Assembly (NCBI GenBank): GCA_030650845.1
Contig: JAUSDC010000032.1
Span: 1 to 51,335 of the forward strand
Direction: 5' to 3'
Length of the DNA: 51,335 bases
DNA from: Candidatus Methanoperedens sp.
GTDB lineage: Archaea; Halobacteriota; Methanosarcinia; Methanosarcinales; Methanoperedenaceae
Under the pieces are notes generated by a model. It made no database searches, had not been told where the DNA came from, and saw only the letters and a program-made list of their open reading frames with translations. The position numbers and the translations under genes are program-made. Of the stretch, positions 87 to 5,817 are shown one piece after another. Each line of letters opens with the position of its first letter. Position 1 is the first letter of the stretch.

Positions 87-389
87 GGGATCTGAATAAG
101 AAAGGAATAACTGTTTTGCACTTCGTAGATTTCTCGGCGAAAAGCCGGTCGTGCCCGGAAATGCGTGTTGCAGATCCGCTGCGACCATTTCGACTACTGA
201 TTCACCCCAGCCAAGTGCTTGCTGCTTTTCCACAATTCCATGCCCAATGTCCCAGTAAAGCATGATCAGGTCGCAGTTCATAGCCCGCGCCGCCGAAATG
301 CGTGCGGAAACCACGCGAGCCTTCAGGTTCTCGATGAACTGACGATATTCCGGCGAGGTCAGCATGGCCGAGTCAGTAGGGTTTTTCAT
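1..389 (-). CDS. DUF1016 (YhcG-type) PDDEXK nuclease-family protein, N-terminal part, cut by window edge
   Basis: This is the N-terminal 129 codons of a protein that runs off the left edge. The translation matches the DUF1016 N-terminal domain: a stretch reading LIMLYWDIGHGI, then QALGWGESVVEMVAADL, then FPGTTGFSPRNL. In this family a PDDEXK nuclease domain follows this region; it would lie outside the window. The start ATG (387-389) overlaps the hsdM stop TGA (386-388) as ATGA, so the two genes are translationally coupled. DUF1016 genes often sit inside type I restriction loci, and hsdS would be expected further left. The last visible codons contain two in-frame 57-bp repeat units, each centred on an imperfect palindrome. 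The function of the protein in the locus is not known to me. Confidence 0.8.
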   Translation of the reverse strand, partial: MKNPTDSAMLTSPEYRQFIENLKARVVSARISAARAMNCDLIMLYWDIGHGIVEKQQALGWGESVVEMVAADLQHAFPGTTGFSPRNLRSAKQLFLSYSDPTIWLQAVAKLPRGAKVDDSEIWPQAAAK

Positions 390-2368
390 TTAGCCAGCCC
401 CTCCAGCATCTTCTCTGCCTCTTTCTCCAATCGCCAGAATTCTTCCAATAATTCCTTCGCTGGCGTCGGCGGATGATAGCGATAAAAGTATTTGTTCGGC
501 AGGATTTCGTATCCAAGCTGCGGGCTGTCTTCCCAATGGATGATGGGCTTTGCGATCTCCCGTTTCAGGAACGCCTCGATGTCTTCGCCGTGAGGAATGT
601 ATTCATCGTCCTGCACGTAGTGCCGGTGCGTCCACTCAATGGAGAGGATTTCTGGTCGATCGCCCAGAGCCGCTTTGAGCTTCTTCACGGCGCTGTCCAC
701 TGGTTTGAGGATGAACTCCACGGTCTTCTCTTTGTTATCTGTTTTCAAGCGCACACAGAAGGTGAGGTCGCTGTCATGGAACGCCTGCTCCTTTGCAAGG
801 TTGGCAGCGGTGAAAGTCTTCTCGTAGGGTTCGGTGATGATGACTGGCTGGTCGTTCTCGTCGGTCTGCCAAAAAACAACTTTGACCTTATGATAGGCAA
901 AATCGGTGGTGTGGAACAGTTTCACCTGCTCGTCTGCAAAACCATTTGCCCAGCCTTCGTGGTAGCGCTGTTCGATCCATTGCCGGTGGGCGTCGGTCAT
1001 CCGGTTACGCTTATTACCAAAAGACTTCGGCTCTTTCTCGAACTGCGCTCGGGCGTCGATCAGCATCACCCTGCCGCGATGGTCGACAGGCTTCTCATTT
1101 CGCAGCAGCCAGATGTAGGTGAAGATGCCGGTGTTATAGAAAAGCTGGTCAGGCAGCATGACAATGGCATCAAGCCAGTCGTTCTCCAGTATCCAGCGGC
1201 GGATCTCGCTTTCACCTGAGCCGCAATCACCGTTGGACAGGGGCGAACCGTTGAAAATAATAGCGATGCGGCTGCCCCCGTCTTCAGGCTGGATCATCTT
1301 CGCCAGCATAGTTTGCAGGAACAGCAGCGCGCCGTCGTTGGAACGCGGCATGCCTGCCCGATAGCGTGTCGTCTCAAGCTTGCGCGCTTCTGCCTCATAG
1401 CCATCCTTGCCGCCCCATGTGACGCCAAAGGGCGGATTGCTAAGCATGCGGTTAAAGCGGTATTTCGTCTCAGGGAACTGGTCTCCCGGTTCTTTGCTGT
1501 GCGGGTCGTGAGGAATGAGCGAGTTGCCAAGCAGTACCGTCGCCTGTTTGTCATTCTTGATCAGGAAGTCAGCCTTGCAGATGGCGTAGTTCGTCGGCGA
1601 TAGTTCCTGGCAGTGAAGGGTCAGGAACTTCTCAACACGCTCTCTTTCCTCTGGCGTAGCGGCGCGGTCGAGCATGTGTTCTTTAGCAATGGATACCATT
1701 CCGCCTGTGCCGCCTGCGGTGTCATAGATGGAGAAATGCCTGTCAGGGATCGGTATCTCAAGCAGTTCGACCATGAGACGGATGACCTCGCGCGGAGTGA
1801 AATGTTCTCCCGCCTCCTCGCCGCTTTGTTCTGAAAAGCGCCGCAGCAGTTCCTCGTAAATGTAGCTCATCTCAAGACCTGAGAGCTTGTCCGGGCCAAG
1901 CTCCATTTCCTTGTATTGATTCAGGATCGGAGCGAGCCGGTTGTTCTTCACCATCAGGCCGATGGTGGCACGGTAATTGAAGTGTTCGATGATATCGTCA
2001 ATGTTATTGGAAAAGCCGTTGATATAGGCGCGAAAGTTATCCTCCAGGAGCATGTGGTCTTCGTCATAGACCTTTCGCAGCGTCCAGTCGGTCTTGTTCG
2101 AGAACGGCGCCTGCTGGGGATTAAGTTCGAGTTCTTTGACAAGCTTTGTAAGCTCCTTCTCAGTTATATTGGGCCGCTTAGCCAGCACTTCAGCGCTCTT
2201 TGCCTCGCGCCATGCGAGCAATACGCACTCCAGCCGCCGGATAACGATGATGGGCAGGATGACGCTCTGGTATTCGTAAGCCTTGAACTTGCCTCGCAGT
2301 CGTTCTGCGGATTTCCAGATATCAGTTGCGAGATTGTCGAGTTTTGGTTTGTTAAGTGAGAGTGCCAT
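386..2368 (-). CDS. hsdM: Type I restriction-modification DNA methyltransferase subunit (HsdM)
   Basis: This is the 660-residue modification subunit of a type I restriction system, which methylates adenine at N6 within the target chosen by HsdS. The N-terminal helical HsdM domain (about residues 10-150) is followed by the N6-MTase domain. That domain has a motif I variant, DTAGGTGG, at 216-223 (the usual form is DPACGTGG) and catalytic NPPF at 311-314. The phrase GEHFTPREVIRLMVELL before motif I is typical of the family. I place the start at 2368 because the sequence matches the family from MALSLNKP onward and AAAGGAT lies upstream; the open frame to 2503 is an unsupported extension. The gene is clearly richer in G+C than the DNA at 2.4-4.6 kb, consistent with transfer. 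No hsdR is visible. Confidence 0.93.
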   Translation of the reverse strand: MALSLNKPKLDNLATDIWKSAERLRGKFKAYEYQSVILPIIVIRRLECVLLAWREAKSAEVLAKRPNITEKELTKLVKELELNPQQAPFSNKTDWTLRKVYDEDHMLLEDNFRAYINGFSNNIDDIIEHFNYRATIGLMVKNNRLAPILNQYKEMELGPDKLSGLEMSYIYEELLRRFSEQSGEEAGEHFTPREVIRLMVELLEIPIPDRHFSIYDTAGGTGGMVSIAKEHMLDRAATPEERERVEKFLTLHCQELSPTNYAICKADFLIKNDKQATVLLGNSLIPHDPHSKEPGDQFPETKYRFNRMLSNPPFGVTWGGKDGYEAEARKLETTRYRAGMPRSNDGALLFLQTMLAKMIQPEDGGSRIAIIFNGSPLSNGDCGSGESEIRRWILENDWLDAIVMLPDQLFYNTGIFTYIWLLRNEKPVDHRGRVMLIDARAQFEKEPKSFGNKRNRMTDAHRQWIEQRYHEGWANGFADEQVKLFHTTDFAYHKVKVVFWQTDENDQPVIITEPYEKTFTAANLAKEQAFHDSDLTFCVRLKTDNKEKTVEFILKPVDSAVKKLKAALGDRPEILSIEWTHRHYVQDDEYIPHGEDIEAFLKREIAKPIIHWEDSPQLGYEILPNKYFYRYHPPTPAKELLEEFWRLEKEAEKMLEGLAK

Positions 2369-3027
2369 TTTATTTTCAATATCCTTTTTTTGATTTAACG
2401 TTATTATAATTATGAAACCAAGCATATACCGTTTGTAATGAATCAAAAAGCTTTTCATAATTTCTGCCTGCGCGAGGATATAGTATCCGTGGAAATCCGC
2501 CAAATCCGCGCAATCCGCGTTCTACGTCGTGGTAATTCTGCGTTGTGCACCTCGAAAAAAGCCAACACAACAGGACACACACGAACAAAATCCTCCCCCC
2601 ACAAAAATGCAAACCCCAGCCCCCCGAATGCTTTAATTTTGATGTGAAGCGGTTGCATGGGGGCATATCGGCGCCAGGGATTAATATTTAAAGAGTGATA
2701 AATATGCGGCGCCTTTGATACATGAAAAAAATATTGAGAGAAATAAATATTTTAGTGTCAAGTGGCAGGTTGGGGAGTGGGGGTTAGTGTGTTAAAAAAG
2801 TTACACCTGCCACCTACACAGTTCCAATAAACCAGAATATAATATTTAAGATTTACGATATTATTCTGGGTTATTTCTGAGATTGACCTTGCACATTATA
2901 CGATGTTAATATGTGAGTAAAAAAAATATGAACAGCTTCCTCTCATGAGTTTGGGTAATGTTTGGGAAAATAGTTTTAAATATGAAAACTGTGAAACCCT
3001 TGCAGAAAAGAGAGAAAAATAGGTGGG
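2369..3027. other. AT-rich intergenic stretch with gene remnant and inverted repeats
   Basis: I see no convincing gene in this 659-bp stretch. It holds a degenerate segment near 2490-2525 with repeated AATCCGC words, the first 85-bp gene-tail repeat (2628-2712), an inverted repeat GTGGCAGGT/ACCTGCCAC (2762-2770 with 2805-2813), and an imperfect hairpin near 2832-2870 (CCAGAATA...TATTCTGG). The word GGTTGGGGAGTGG occurs near 2769 and again near 3026. It reads like a recombination-worn boundary between the restriction locus and the small-gene patch. Confidence 0.6.
2628..2712 (+). repeat. 85-bp direct repeat, copy 1 (duplicated 3' end of a lost gene)
   Basis: This segment matches 4630-4714 over 85 bp with 4 mismatches. 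In frame it encodes a 20-residue tail beginning CFNFDVKRLHGG and ending APGINI, with stop TAA at 2689-2691. The two mismatches that fall inside the coding part (ATA/ATT and CCA/CCG) are both synonymous. Upstream of 2628 the similarity ends, so only the gene tail is present here. Confidence 0.85.
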
Positions 3028-3234
3028 TTGGGGAGTGGTGGTATCTTCCCTGCAAGGTCAAAATCCTATTTTCTTTACATAATATATAGACTTTTTGGAC
3101 TTTTAAAAATGAATCAGAATAAAAGTCTGTCTCACAGTTTTATGTCATGGATTAACCAACTTTTTTTAACAAGGGAAACTTTAAGTATACTCTCTTTCAT
3201 AATGTTAATAGTCACAGGGGGTGACAGAAAAACG

Positions 3235-3351
3235 ACTGAACAAGTTGAATGTAAAGAAGCAGGAATAGAGTGTCCTTTCATGCTTCGCACCGAGAGTGAT
3301 GATGAGCTTGTCTACTTTACTAAACAGCATGTGAAGAAGGAAAAATATTAG
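3235..3351 (+). CDS. Small DUF1059-like protein (start uncertain)
   Basis: The frame is open from 3028 to 3351, but only the last ~37 residues resemble a known family. The pattern VECKEAGIECPF, then acidic residues, then a closing HVKKEKY fits the short DUF1059 domain (Cys...GxxCxF...E..H). The function of DUF1059 is unknown. No good start with a ribosome-binding site is visible next to the domain. In-frame ATGs exist upstream, near 3109, 3142 and 3202, and the residues between them and the domain look hydrophobic and unlike the family. The coordinates given cover the recognisable part. It is followed after 9 bp by the CMD-family gene, so they probably share a transcript. Confidence 0.5.
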   Translation, partial: TEQVECKEAGIECPFMLRTESDDELVYFTKQHVKKEKY

Positions 3352-3360
3352 GAGTGCACA

Positions 3361-3750
3361 ATGAACTATGAAGATACAATAAAAGATATAGAAAAGACAT
3401 TGGGAATAGTACCAGGCTTTATGAAAGCATTACCCAAGAATGTTCTTGTACAGGAATGGCCTCTTTTCAAAACATATAACTTTGAAAAGACAGAAATACC
3501 GGCCAAATATAGAGAACTTATGGGCTTGGCAGTAGCGGCTAACATAAAATGTCCTTACTGTATAATCTTCCATAAGGGCGCAGCAGAAATGAATGGCGCA
3601 ACAAAAGAAGAACTGGCGGAAACGGCATTTCTCGCAAGTTACACAGCAAGATGGAGTACTCTAATTCACGCTCAGAATTATGATTTAGAGACTTTCAAGA
3701 AAGAGTTCGAACAGATAGGAAAGCATCTGCAAAAGATGATGAAAAAATAA
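3361..3750 (+). CDS. Carboxymuconolactone decarboxylase/AhpD-like protein
   Basis: This 129-residue protein belongs to the CMD/AhpD alpha-helical family. The redox motif is clear: C64-P-Y-C67, followed by H71, in the context MGLAVAANIKCPYCIIFHKG. Members with this CxxCxxxH arrangement are usually thiol-based peroxidases or disulfide reductases rather than true decarboxylases. GGAGTG sits just before the ATG. It lies in a run of four small same-strand genes (DUF1059-like, this one, DUF4242-like, PAS), suggesting a small redox or stress unit. The substrate cannot be read from the sequence. Confidence 0.88.
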   Translation: MNYEDTIKDIEKTLGIVPGFMKALPKNVLVQEWPLFKTYNFEKTEIPAKYRELMGLAVAANIKCPYCIIFHKGAAEMNGATKEELAETAFLASYTARWSTLIHAQNYDLETFKKEFEQIGKHLQKMMKK

Positions 3751-3769
3751 ATGTAAAGAGGTGAAATCA

Positions 3770-4006
3770 ATGCCAAGATTTATAGACCAACATCCAATGA
3801 AACCGTTCAAAGCTGAACAGCTTAAAGGACTGCAAAAGATGAAAGCTGATGAGTTCGGGGTAACACACCATGAAATTATTTTCAGTGAAAAAGAGAATAA
3901 AATCTGGTGCGTAATAGACGCTCCGAATAAAGAAGCTGTCAAAAAGCACCACGAGAAAGCAAATGTTAAAACGGACTTCATTTACGAGGTTGAAACAACT
4001 ACATAA
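3770..4006 (+). CDS. DUF4242-family small protein
   Basis: The 78-residue product starts MPRFIDQHPM and continues with DEFGVTHHEI, DAPNKEAVKKHHEKA and an EVETTT end. This is the pattern of the DUF4242 (SCO4226-like) ferredoxin-fold family, some of whose members bind nickel. The start is set at ATG 3770, because AAAGAGGTG (3755-3763) is a good ribosome-binding site for it; the in-frame GTG at 3761 is part of that site. It lies 19 bp after the CMD gene and is probably co-transcribed with it. The histidines at HH and HHEK could bind metal, which is inference. Confidence 0.8.
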   Translation: MPRFIDQHPMKPFKAEQLKGLQKMKADEFGVTHHEIIFSEKENKIWCVIDAPNKEAVKKHHEKANVKTDFIYEVETTT

Positions 4007-4121
4007 ATAAACATAAGATAAAATATGTTTCAATGTTTCTTCGTAAACAGTGGGAAAGATTATTTTTTTCTTTCTCTTTCAAAATAAAAGAATGGAAAAT
4101 AGAAATTAAAAGGTGATAATA

Positions 4122-4514
4122 TTGGCAAAAGAAAATGTAAATCCGCATGAAGAGATAATGAATGGAGTTCAAGAACAACTGAAAGAAGTCCTGGATGAGT
4201 CGAAGCAAGCTATCTATGTATATCTTGATGACCACCATATTACATACAATCAACAGTTTGCTTCGCTATTAGGATACAAATCTATTGAGGAATTGTCAAA
4301 AGTAAAAGAACCTTTTGTCGATGCTTTCGTTACGGAGAAGACTCAGGAAACTCTGATACATGCTTACAAGCACGCAATGGAAGATAAAATTCCATCAGAC
4401 ATCGAAATCTTCATGAAGAGGAAAACAGGAGAACCCGTAAAAGTTAAGGTAATAATGGTACCCATTGCTTATAATGGAGAACTACTCGCTCTACATTTTG
4501 TAAAGAAAATCTAA
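4122..4514 (+). CDS. Stand-alone PAS-domain protein
   Basis: The product, about 130 residues, is essentially one PAS domain: a helical lead, then AIYVYLDDHHITYNQQFA, LLGYKSIEEL, and the closing strands VKVKVIMVPIAYNGE and LLALHFVKKI. No output domain is attached, so it is a sensor or ligand-binding module that must act through a partner. I prefer the TTG at 4122 (AKENVNPHEE) because AGGTGAT at 4111-4117 lies at normal distance. The in-frame GTG at 4113 overlaps that site. It closes the small-gene patch, about 115 bp after DUF4242. Confidence 0.8.
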   Translation: MAKENVNPHEEIMNGVQEQLKEVLDESKQAIYVYLDDHHITYNQQFASLLGYKSIEELSKVKEPFVDAFVTEKTQETLIHAYKHAMEDKIPSDIEIFMKRKTGEPVKVKVIMVPIAYNGELLALHFVKKI

Positions 4515-4546
4515 TTGACACGGGACAATTCAACCAGGACGATTAA

Positions 4547-4693
4547 TATTTTTATGTGCATTGGGTGCCGGCTCAAACACAGGCGAACTGGAAGGGGCTC
4601 TGGTATGATGCGGTGTTCCGGTTACCTGTATGCTTTAATTTTGATGTGAAGCGGTTGCATGGGGGCATTTCGGCGCCGGGGATTAATATTTAA
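4547..4693 (+). pseudogene. C-terminal remnant of an unrecognised gene
   Basis: After an in-frame stop at 4544-4546, the frame is open and reads as a natural protein end: VHWVPAQTQANWKGLWYDAV followed by the tail shared with copy 1, ending APGINI and TAA at 4691-4693. There is no convincing start, and the frame is too short for a whole domain. The last 20 codons are duplicated at 2629-2691 with only synonymous changes. I do not recognise the parent protein. Confidence 0.55.
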
Positions 4694-4714
4694 AGAGTAA
4701 TAAATATGAGGCGC
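4630..4714 (+). repeat. 85-bp direct repeat, copy 2
   Basis: This is the second copy of the repeat at 2628-2712, with 81 of 85 bases identical. The shared end contains TTAATATTTAAAG, which overlaps the stop codon of the remnant and resembles an archaeal TATA box. It lies about 80-90 bp upstream of the amidohydrolase start and could serve as its promoter. Confidence 0.85.
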
Positions 4715-4776
4715 AAATGATCTCCTCAGACACTCAGAACGAAAAGCGCAAATAGCATAAAGTCAAATCAGGTAGC

Positions 4777-5817
4777 ATGGAACAGACCCTGCAGGGTACC
4801 ATCATCTACGGAGACGAATTCGAACCTTTAGACGGCATAATCACCATAGAGGACGGTATTATAAAAGACATCGAAGAAAAAAAGATCAAGGCAGACACCA
4901 TAATCGCCCCCTGCTTCGTGAACGCCCACACACATATAGGCGACTCCGTGATAAAGGACCCACCTTACCTTCCCCTTGCTGAACTTGTTCAACCTCCGAA
5001 CGGGCTAAAGCACAGTATCCTTGCGCAGACATCAAGGGATGATCTTGTCGCATCCATGAAAGCCACTATCCATGACATGATAAGAACAGGCACCTGCGCC
5101 TTTATGGATTTTCGTGAGGGCGGATCGGCTGGTGTTAAGGCGCTAAACGATGCTTTATCCGGATCTCAAATCGAAGCAATGAGTTTTGGAAGGCCCGTGG
5201 ATAACGATATGAGTTATCTTGATCAATGCAACGGGACTGGCCTTAGCAGCACCAGCGACCTTGAGATCGATGTGATCCAGGAGATTGTCAGGCATACAAA
5301 AGGAAATGGAAAAAGAATTGCCATCCATGCCGGAGAAAGAGATATGTCTGATATTCTGCCTGCTATTGAGCTTGAACCCGATCATTTGATACATCTTACC
5401 CATGCAGGAAAAAAAGAGATAAAATTGATTGGAAGAGAGGGTATACCTGTCGTGGTCTGTCTGCGTTCGAATTTCCTTACACGGTCTGGGCTGCCACCCA
5501 TAAAAAAAATGATGGATGAAGGCATCGTTGTCGCAGCAGGGACAGACAACGTGATGCTAAATTCGGTCAATATGTTCTCTGAGATGGAATTCCTTGCAAA
5601 AACAGCTCTGTACGATGACAGACAAGTATTTAAACTGTGCACGCTAAATGGGGCAAAAGTAGCAGGTATAGATAAAGAACTGGGCTCCATAAAAACGGGG
5701 AAAAAGGCAAGACTGATGATTTTAAATAAAAAGTCAGACAATATGTATGGTATAAGAAATCCTTTAAGCAGCCTTGTGAGACGTGCAAGACCGGATGACA
5801 TTATCAGGATAATCTAA
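4777..5817 (+). CDS. Amidohydrolase-superfamily protein (cytosine deaminase/chlorohydrolase-like)
   Basis: This 346-residue metal-dependent hydrolase has the superfamily signatures. NAHTH gives metal ligands H51 and H53, HAGE lies at about 184, HLTHA at about 206-210, and GTDN has D257. A small N-terminal beta-sandwich (DGIITIEDGIIKDIEE) and a C-terminal return to it (GSIKTGKKARLMILN) are as expected. The substrate could be a deaminated base, a guanidine or another cyclic amide; the sequence does not decide. UspA follows after 18 bp and a CBS protein after that, so a three-gene unit is likely. The upstream region holds the 85-bp repeat with a TATA-like element. Confidence 0.85.
   Translation: MEQTLQGTIIYGDEFEPLDGIITIEDGIIKDIEEKKIKADTIIAPCFVNAHTHIGDSVIKDPPYLPLAELVQPPNGLKHSILAQTSRDDLVASMKATIHDMIRTGTCAFMDFREGGSAGVKALNDALSGSQIEAMSFGRPVDNDMSYLDQCNGTGLSSTSDLEIDVIQEIVRHTKGNGKRIAIHAGERDMSDILPAIELEPDHLIHLTHAGKKEIKLIGREGIPVVVCLRSNFLTRSGLPPIKKMMDEGIVVAAGTDNVMLNSVNMFSEMEFLAKTALYDDRQVFKLCTLNGAKVAGIDKELGSIKTGKKARLMILNKKSDNMYGIRNPLSSLVRRARPDDIIRII

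Follow-up and report, generated by a model that had tools for sequence, protein, structure and literature searches.

We consider it probable, if by no means certain, that the direct repeat at 2628-2712 and 4630-4714 of a 51,335-nucleotide contig of Candidatus Methanoperedens sp. (the whole of this stretch is referred to as the window) marks boundary (recombination) sites, which delimit gene cassettes in integron-like arrays on Methanoperedens chromosomes. Support for an integron-like reading comes from the restriction of the sites to one family, their co-orientation, the fixed orientation of each cassette family, the re-assortment of neighbors and the accessory nature of the cargo, whereas the lack of a PF00589 recombinase on array contigs and the diffuse exchange point count against it. 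Recombination within the conserved core of the site would excise and insert cassettes, or exchange them, and the catalyst would be a site-specific enzyme acting in trans, most likely a tyrosine recombinase, for which XerA is the candidate.

The direct repeat and its surroundings in the window

The two copies lie on the same strand, 2002 bp apart from start to start, and match at 81 of 85 bp (95.3%, four differences), a similarity far above the chance level; the alignment can be extended to 97 bp at 91% identity. Each allows the reading ...FNFDVKRLHGGISAPGINI*, and within this frame they differ at two positions (ATA/ATT and CCA/CCG), both silent, just as a preliminary description had stated. 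That description went on to propose that both copies encode the same protein end, that this tail was under selection as protein, and that the 3' end of a gene had been duplicated by recombination at an attachment site with later loss of the parent gene. The open frame common to both copies stands and, with the two silent differences, speaks for this proposal, but two such differences are too few to provide evidence of selection, and the frame does not hold up as a real protein end. A 45-residue reading ending in GGISAPGINI is interrupted by an in-frame TGA in most relatives, the SAPGINI-stop is kept by only a few of 131 aligned copies, and across these copies the core segment is anywhere from 24 to 29 bp long, with multiples of three not maintained. 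The best-conserved stretch, CATATCGGCGCC(G)GGGATTAATATTTAAAGAGTGATAAATRTGCGGCGC, extends beyond the stop codon, and no full-length protein ending in the repeat's peptide was found in the relatives searched. The frame breaks and the out-of-frame core length led us to reject the tail peptide as a protein, and a duplicated gene end with a lost parent is barely credible. Judged by its sequence, the repeat is instead a member of a dispersed non-coding site family, with 16 DNA-level matches to copy 1 in the window's own genome (3.4 Mb, 258 contigs). What survives of the attachment-site proposal is that the repeats are boundary sites with re-assorted neighbors; no 3' end of a parent gene serves as the att site.

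A sequence-only model (R1), built from 30 copies and searched with cmsearch, places site 1 at 2632-2719 on the plus strand (92.4 bits; core at about 2666-2716, ATCGGCGCCAGGGATTAATATTTAAAGAGTGATAAATATGCGGCGCCTTTG) and site 2, in the same orientation, at 4634-4721 (85.7 bits). Alignment and blast revealed a hairpin-forming left-end module, termed type A, immediately before site 2 (4576-4629, plus strand); this module is common to at least 11 other sites, and copy 1 lacks it. The insert bounded by the two co-oriented sites (2720-4575, plus strand) holds the four genes that the preliminary description had named, all on the plus strand. The first is an ORF with a C-terminal DUF1059-like domain (3028-3351; PF06348, E 5e-4, just under the cut-off), which probably starts at an uncertain point near 3229, and it is followed by a carboxymuconolactone decarboxylase-family (CMD) protein (3361-3750; PF02627, E 1e-14) with homologues 62-82% identical in 6 relatives. 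The DUF4242-like gene encodes a SCO4226-like (nickel-responsive, DUF4242-type) protein (3761-4006; PF14026, E 1e-13), and the last is a PAS-domain protein (4113-4514; PF13426, E 2e-7).

Across site 1 lies neighboring cargo, the type I DNA methyltransferase gene hsdM (386-2380, minus strand; PF02384, E 7e-51; PADLOC MTase_I, E 8e-169), the far end of which lies beyond the contig start. By blastn, its leader (2349-2623, minus strand) shares 84-87% identity with the leader of a BRO gene (L044 6093-6358) and with that of a RhuM gene (L039 3714-3954), both of which also adjoin sites. The contig itself opens in a palindromic direct repeat of 27 bp, AATTTGGCTGCAGCTTGTGGCCAAATT, with copies at 1-27 and 58-84, where the assembly probably broke. 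A tRNA was the only Rfam match in the window.

On the other side, homology to relatives (blastn and tblastn) begins at the edge of the conserved chromosome (4736-5817, plus strand); for the closest relative, G016, 15 bp separate the end of site 2 from the start of homology at 4736. To the right of the edge lie an amidohydrolase gene (4777-5817), which 32 of the 33 relatives searched also carry, and then Usp, CBS and pyrE. Site 1 thus divides type I restriction-modification cargo from the four-gene block, and site 2 divides the block from the conserved chromosome. The block would represent a single cassette terminating an array, and the array would continue into the hsdM cassette. In the 20 relatives' loci compared, no site occurs at the corresponding position or next to the CMD gene, the block was not found elsewhere as a site-bounded unit, and the DUF1059, PAS and CMD genes occur together in G003 without sites. 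The composition of the block is not fixed, and we therefore infer its place in the mobile pool solely from its position. For the insertion that had been suggested, no clean empty site was seen at the one locus compared, upstream of the amidohydrolase gene, where G016 has no sites yet carries other DNA.

A site family confined to the Methanoperedenaceae

A census with R1 covered 34 Methanoperedenaceae genomes, of which 32 carry the site in up to 34 copies each, and 26 genomes belonging to other families in the order, where it was not found; every genome is assumed to be metagenome-assembled (a MAG). When 85,000 species genomes were searched for the exact core pattern, it occurred on 12 contigs, all of them labeled as Methanoperedens, Methanoperedenaceae or unassigned archaeal MAGs. 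The same pattern was found in no viral contig, and a viral origin was rejected on this basis. In genomes poor in sites, diverged sites still adjoin the same cargo genes.

The family is dispersed, multicopy and non-coding. In the window the site spans ~90 bp and has an AT-rich core flanked by GGCGCC, within which inverted arms (ATATTTA and TAAATRT) are separated by an 8-bp spacer. RNAalifold returned no consensus pairs in the core, and covariation was absent both in the palindrome pairs and in the consensus hairpin of type A; with no Rfam match to the site either, an RNA element was rejected. A promoter or terminator role is not favored, because cargo genes face either way relative to the site. 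Other palindromic repeats, of a TTAACCACAGAG...CTCTGTGGTT type and a AACACGGAT...ATCCG type, are nested around sites as exchangeable modules (for example at 2488-2528 of the window, at L089 12010-12090, and around 900 and 2240 of L037).

The layout described below recalls an integron remnant, and we asked whether the sites could be attC sites of a canonical archaeal CALIN that has no linked IntI. Array layout, cargo and co-orientation agree with this, and archaeal CALINs are known (PMC9668308). The motif pair RYYYAAC...GTTRRRY, however, is present in 0 of 116 sites on either strand, and this result, together with the absence of a consensus fold or covariation, indicates that the sites are not canonical attC. 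There is likewise no PF00589 integrase on the array contigs of the 18 genomes searched, and we regard a canonical CALIN as very improbable.

Arrays, cargo and re-assortment of neighbors at the sites

Of 89 neighboring site pairs within 4 kb, 88 are co-oriented (82 of 83 in another count), with gaps of 81-2410 bp between neighboring sites (median, 817 bp). Arrays occur on many contigs, such as G005:C38 with 15 sites in a single orientation, and there are several array locations per genome. This co-orientation contrasts with the site orientation of Acinetobacter pdif modules. The only inverted pair among the 89 is in L040, and inside it lies an ORF (528-1859) that, judged by eye, resembles a group II intron reverse transcriptase.

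Most of what lies between sites is small accessory cargo belonging to toxin-antitoxin, restriction-modification and other defense systems. Proteins found there in combination are MqsA with DUF4258, DUF433 with DUF5615, a retropepsin-like protein with DUF5678, AbiEi/AbiEii, DpnII with a D12 methylase, and a type I restriction-modification system in complete form. PIN toxins, HicB-like proteins, a BrnT-like toxin (below the cut-off), and Bro-N and RhuM proteins are also encoded between sites; a PbeC/DndD-like protein adjoins one array.

Several cassettes have features of their own. The commonest cassette gene is a weak match to a type II restriction enzyme (PADLOC REase_II), in every case divergent from a site and close to it, and often decayed (L089 11054-11812; L092 5028-5861 and 7854-8336; L103 3274-4026; L108 5801-6505; L170; L171). 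It may be a selfish or defense gene tied to the system. Truncated gene tails are repeated beside sites (L089 12408-12723, 14816-15030, 15901-16216 and 18632-18947; L091 9347-9643 and 10920-11153; L107 7749-8042), and they include a DGFYTIKPRTEYPVC...LRYRSTS tail that a single array carries in four copies and, in several genomes, the C-terminus of a D12 (Dam-type) methylase. The layout of short co-oriented cassettes is not followed in L104 (G022:C30, 6989-15020), where an entire type I restriction-modification operon sits between outward-pointing sites, minus on the left and plus on the right. A site pair with its flanks is duplicated ~1.3 kb apart in L037 (G000:C77, 733-975 and 2042-2310), which matches the trace expected from unequal recombination between sites.

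To judge how the cassettes behave, we compared inserts and flanks between arrays. All 93 insert-insert homologies of at least 250 bp between different arrays have the same orientation to the site, so that although cargo genes may point in either direction, the direction is fixed per cassette family. Homology of the flanks at site pairs was one-sided in 152 cases and two-sided in 7, statistics that are complicated by long left-end modules common to several cassettes. Random positions in the same loci gave 37 one-sided versus 21 two-sided cases (five draws summed). As homologous positions rarely line up in such draws, this control is imperfect, and the evidence lies in the ratio rather than in the total. 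Within the site alignment, an excess of identity linked to the left neighbor reaches column ~44 and one linked to the right neighbor begins at column ~101, the core between them being linked to neither neighbor or only weakly. These column statistics bound the exchange point to the core and not to a base, with weak linkage across ~55 bp. HicAB lies behind a site in 8 genomes, and in 4 of these the shared sequence starts inside the core, after ATTTAATATTTAAA. The left and right column linkage and this start of HicAB homology are the trace expected from exchange within the core. As read from these alignments, left and right neighbors are re-assorted at sites in many Methanoperedens genomes; neither an excised circle nor a strain-level rearrangement was seen in the MAG data.

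The main rival, and a serious one, is that the sites are dispersed intergenic repeats of a REP/BIME-like kind, with hypervariable islands shuffled by RadA homologous recombination and no dedicated recombinase. Homologous recombination between direct repeats would also give circles, duplications such as that of ~1.3 kb with a site pair in L037, and co-oriented survivors; the nested palindromic repeats, the lack of a linked recombinase and the diffuseness of the exchange points over the core fit it as well. Taken alone, however, it leaves unexplained the fixed orientation of cassette families to the site (93:0), the presence of an own site copy with nearly every insert and the bias toward toxin-antitoxin and defense genes. 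The uniform direction of the sites also argues against it, and sites of 75-90 bp at 70-90% identity are poor substrates. We hold it to be possible but unlikely.

A candidate recombinase and relation to known systems

No PF00589 tyrosine recombinase was found on array contigs in the 18 genomes searched, and a linked integrase was rejected accordingly. Elsewhere in these genomes, a XerA-like protein of ~280 residues is present as a single copy in 17 of 18, the exception being a genome that is 68% complete, and the proteins are 77-90% identical among the five compared. Of the tyrosine recombinases found, it alone occurs in nearly all genomes with arrays, and the array-bearing G010 (84% complete) has no intact tyrosine recombinase besides it. 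Another conserved integrase family was seen as well. Of 6 genomes searched, 4 lack serine recombinases, and Y1 transposases, which occur in 5 of 6, are absent from G015, a genome with arrays. The distribution of the genes suggests host XerA as the leading candidate enzyme, by elimination.

The Y1 transposases bear on a further alternative, in which the site is a non-autonomous MITE-like element, such as one of the IS200/IS605 or REP/RAYT type, and inserts beside itself in a single orientation. Multicopy, short and non-coding sites, the capacity of type A copies to form hairpins at either end and the wide occurrence of these transposases are compatible with such an element. The flanks, however, re-assort on both sides, unlike those of a simple insertion, the hairpins show no covariation, G015 has arrays without the transposase, and no pair of inserted and empty loci was found at the one locus compared. 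We think this explanation improbable. Like REP/BIME and MITE-type repeats, the sites are multicopy, intergenic and partly palindromic; unlike them, they form the boundaries of neighbor re-assortment and are nearly all co-oriented with adjacent copies.

The proposed cassette arrays have closer parallels. Archaeal integrons have already been described (PMC9668308), and as in sedentary chromosomal integrons and CALINs, the Methanoperedens arrays are long and co-oriented, with a short non-coding site and one or few accessory genes between sites, and carry many toxin-antitoxin cassettes shuffled between genomes (a mobility that we infer here). They differ in that the sites lack both the motif and the fold of attC, no IntI is linked to them and the genes face either way relative to the site, and also in their several array locations and, in this search, a distribution limited to one archaeal family. 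Acinetobacter pdif/dif modules (PMC6449649, PMC12907356) are similarly small toxin-antitoxin or resistance modules bounded by short sites, and their enzyme is supplied in trans by host XerCD (PMC6449649), of which XerA would by analogy be the candidate counterpart. Unlike pdif, the sites here are longer, are not recognizably dif (11-6-11) and stand in chromosomal arrays, not in plasmid modules. The archaeal XerA/dif system (PMC2958812) shares the single XerA and an AT-rich core with short inverted arms, here ATATTTA-(8)-TAAATRT, although the arm and spacer lengths differ from archaeal dif (11-6-11) and the copies are many.

A text search of PMC9668308 gave no mention of Methanoperedens, and no published report of these arrays was found in a literature search that covered few subscription journals. 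We regard it as possible, though we stop short of calling it probable, that Methanoperedens has a cassette-shuffling system of its own, independent of integrons, in which a new site family stockpiles toxin-antitoxin and anti-phage genes and which is probably driven by XerA or an unrecognized recombinase. If this is true, a major group of methane-oxidizing archaea would possess an integron-like reservoir of defense genes built on an unrelated site, a second and convergent route to cassette stockpiling in Archaea. It would also explain part of the variation in gene content between Methanoperedens strains, and a single motif would provide a sequence handle for locating their defense islands.
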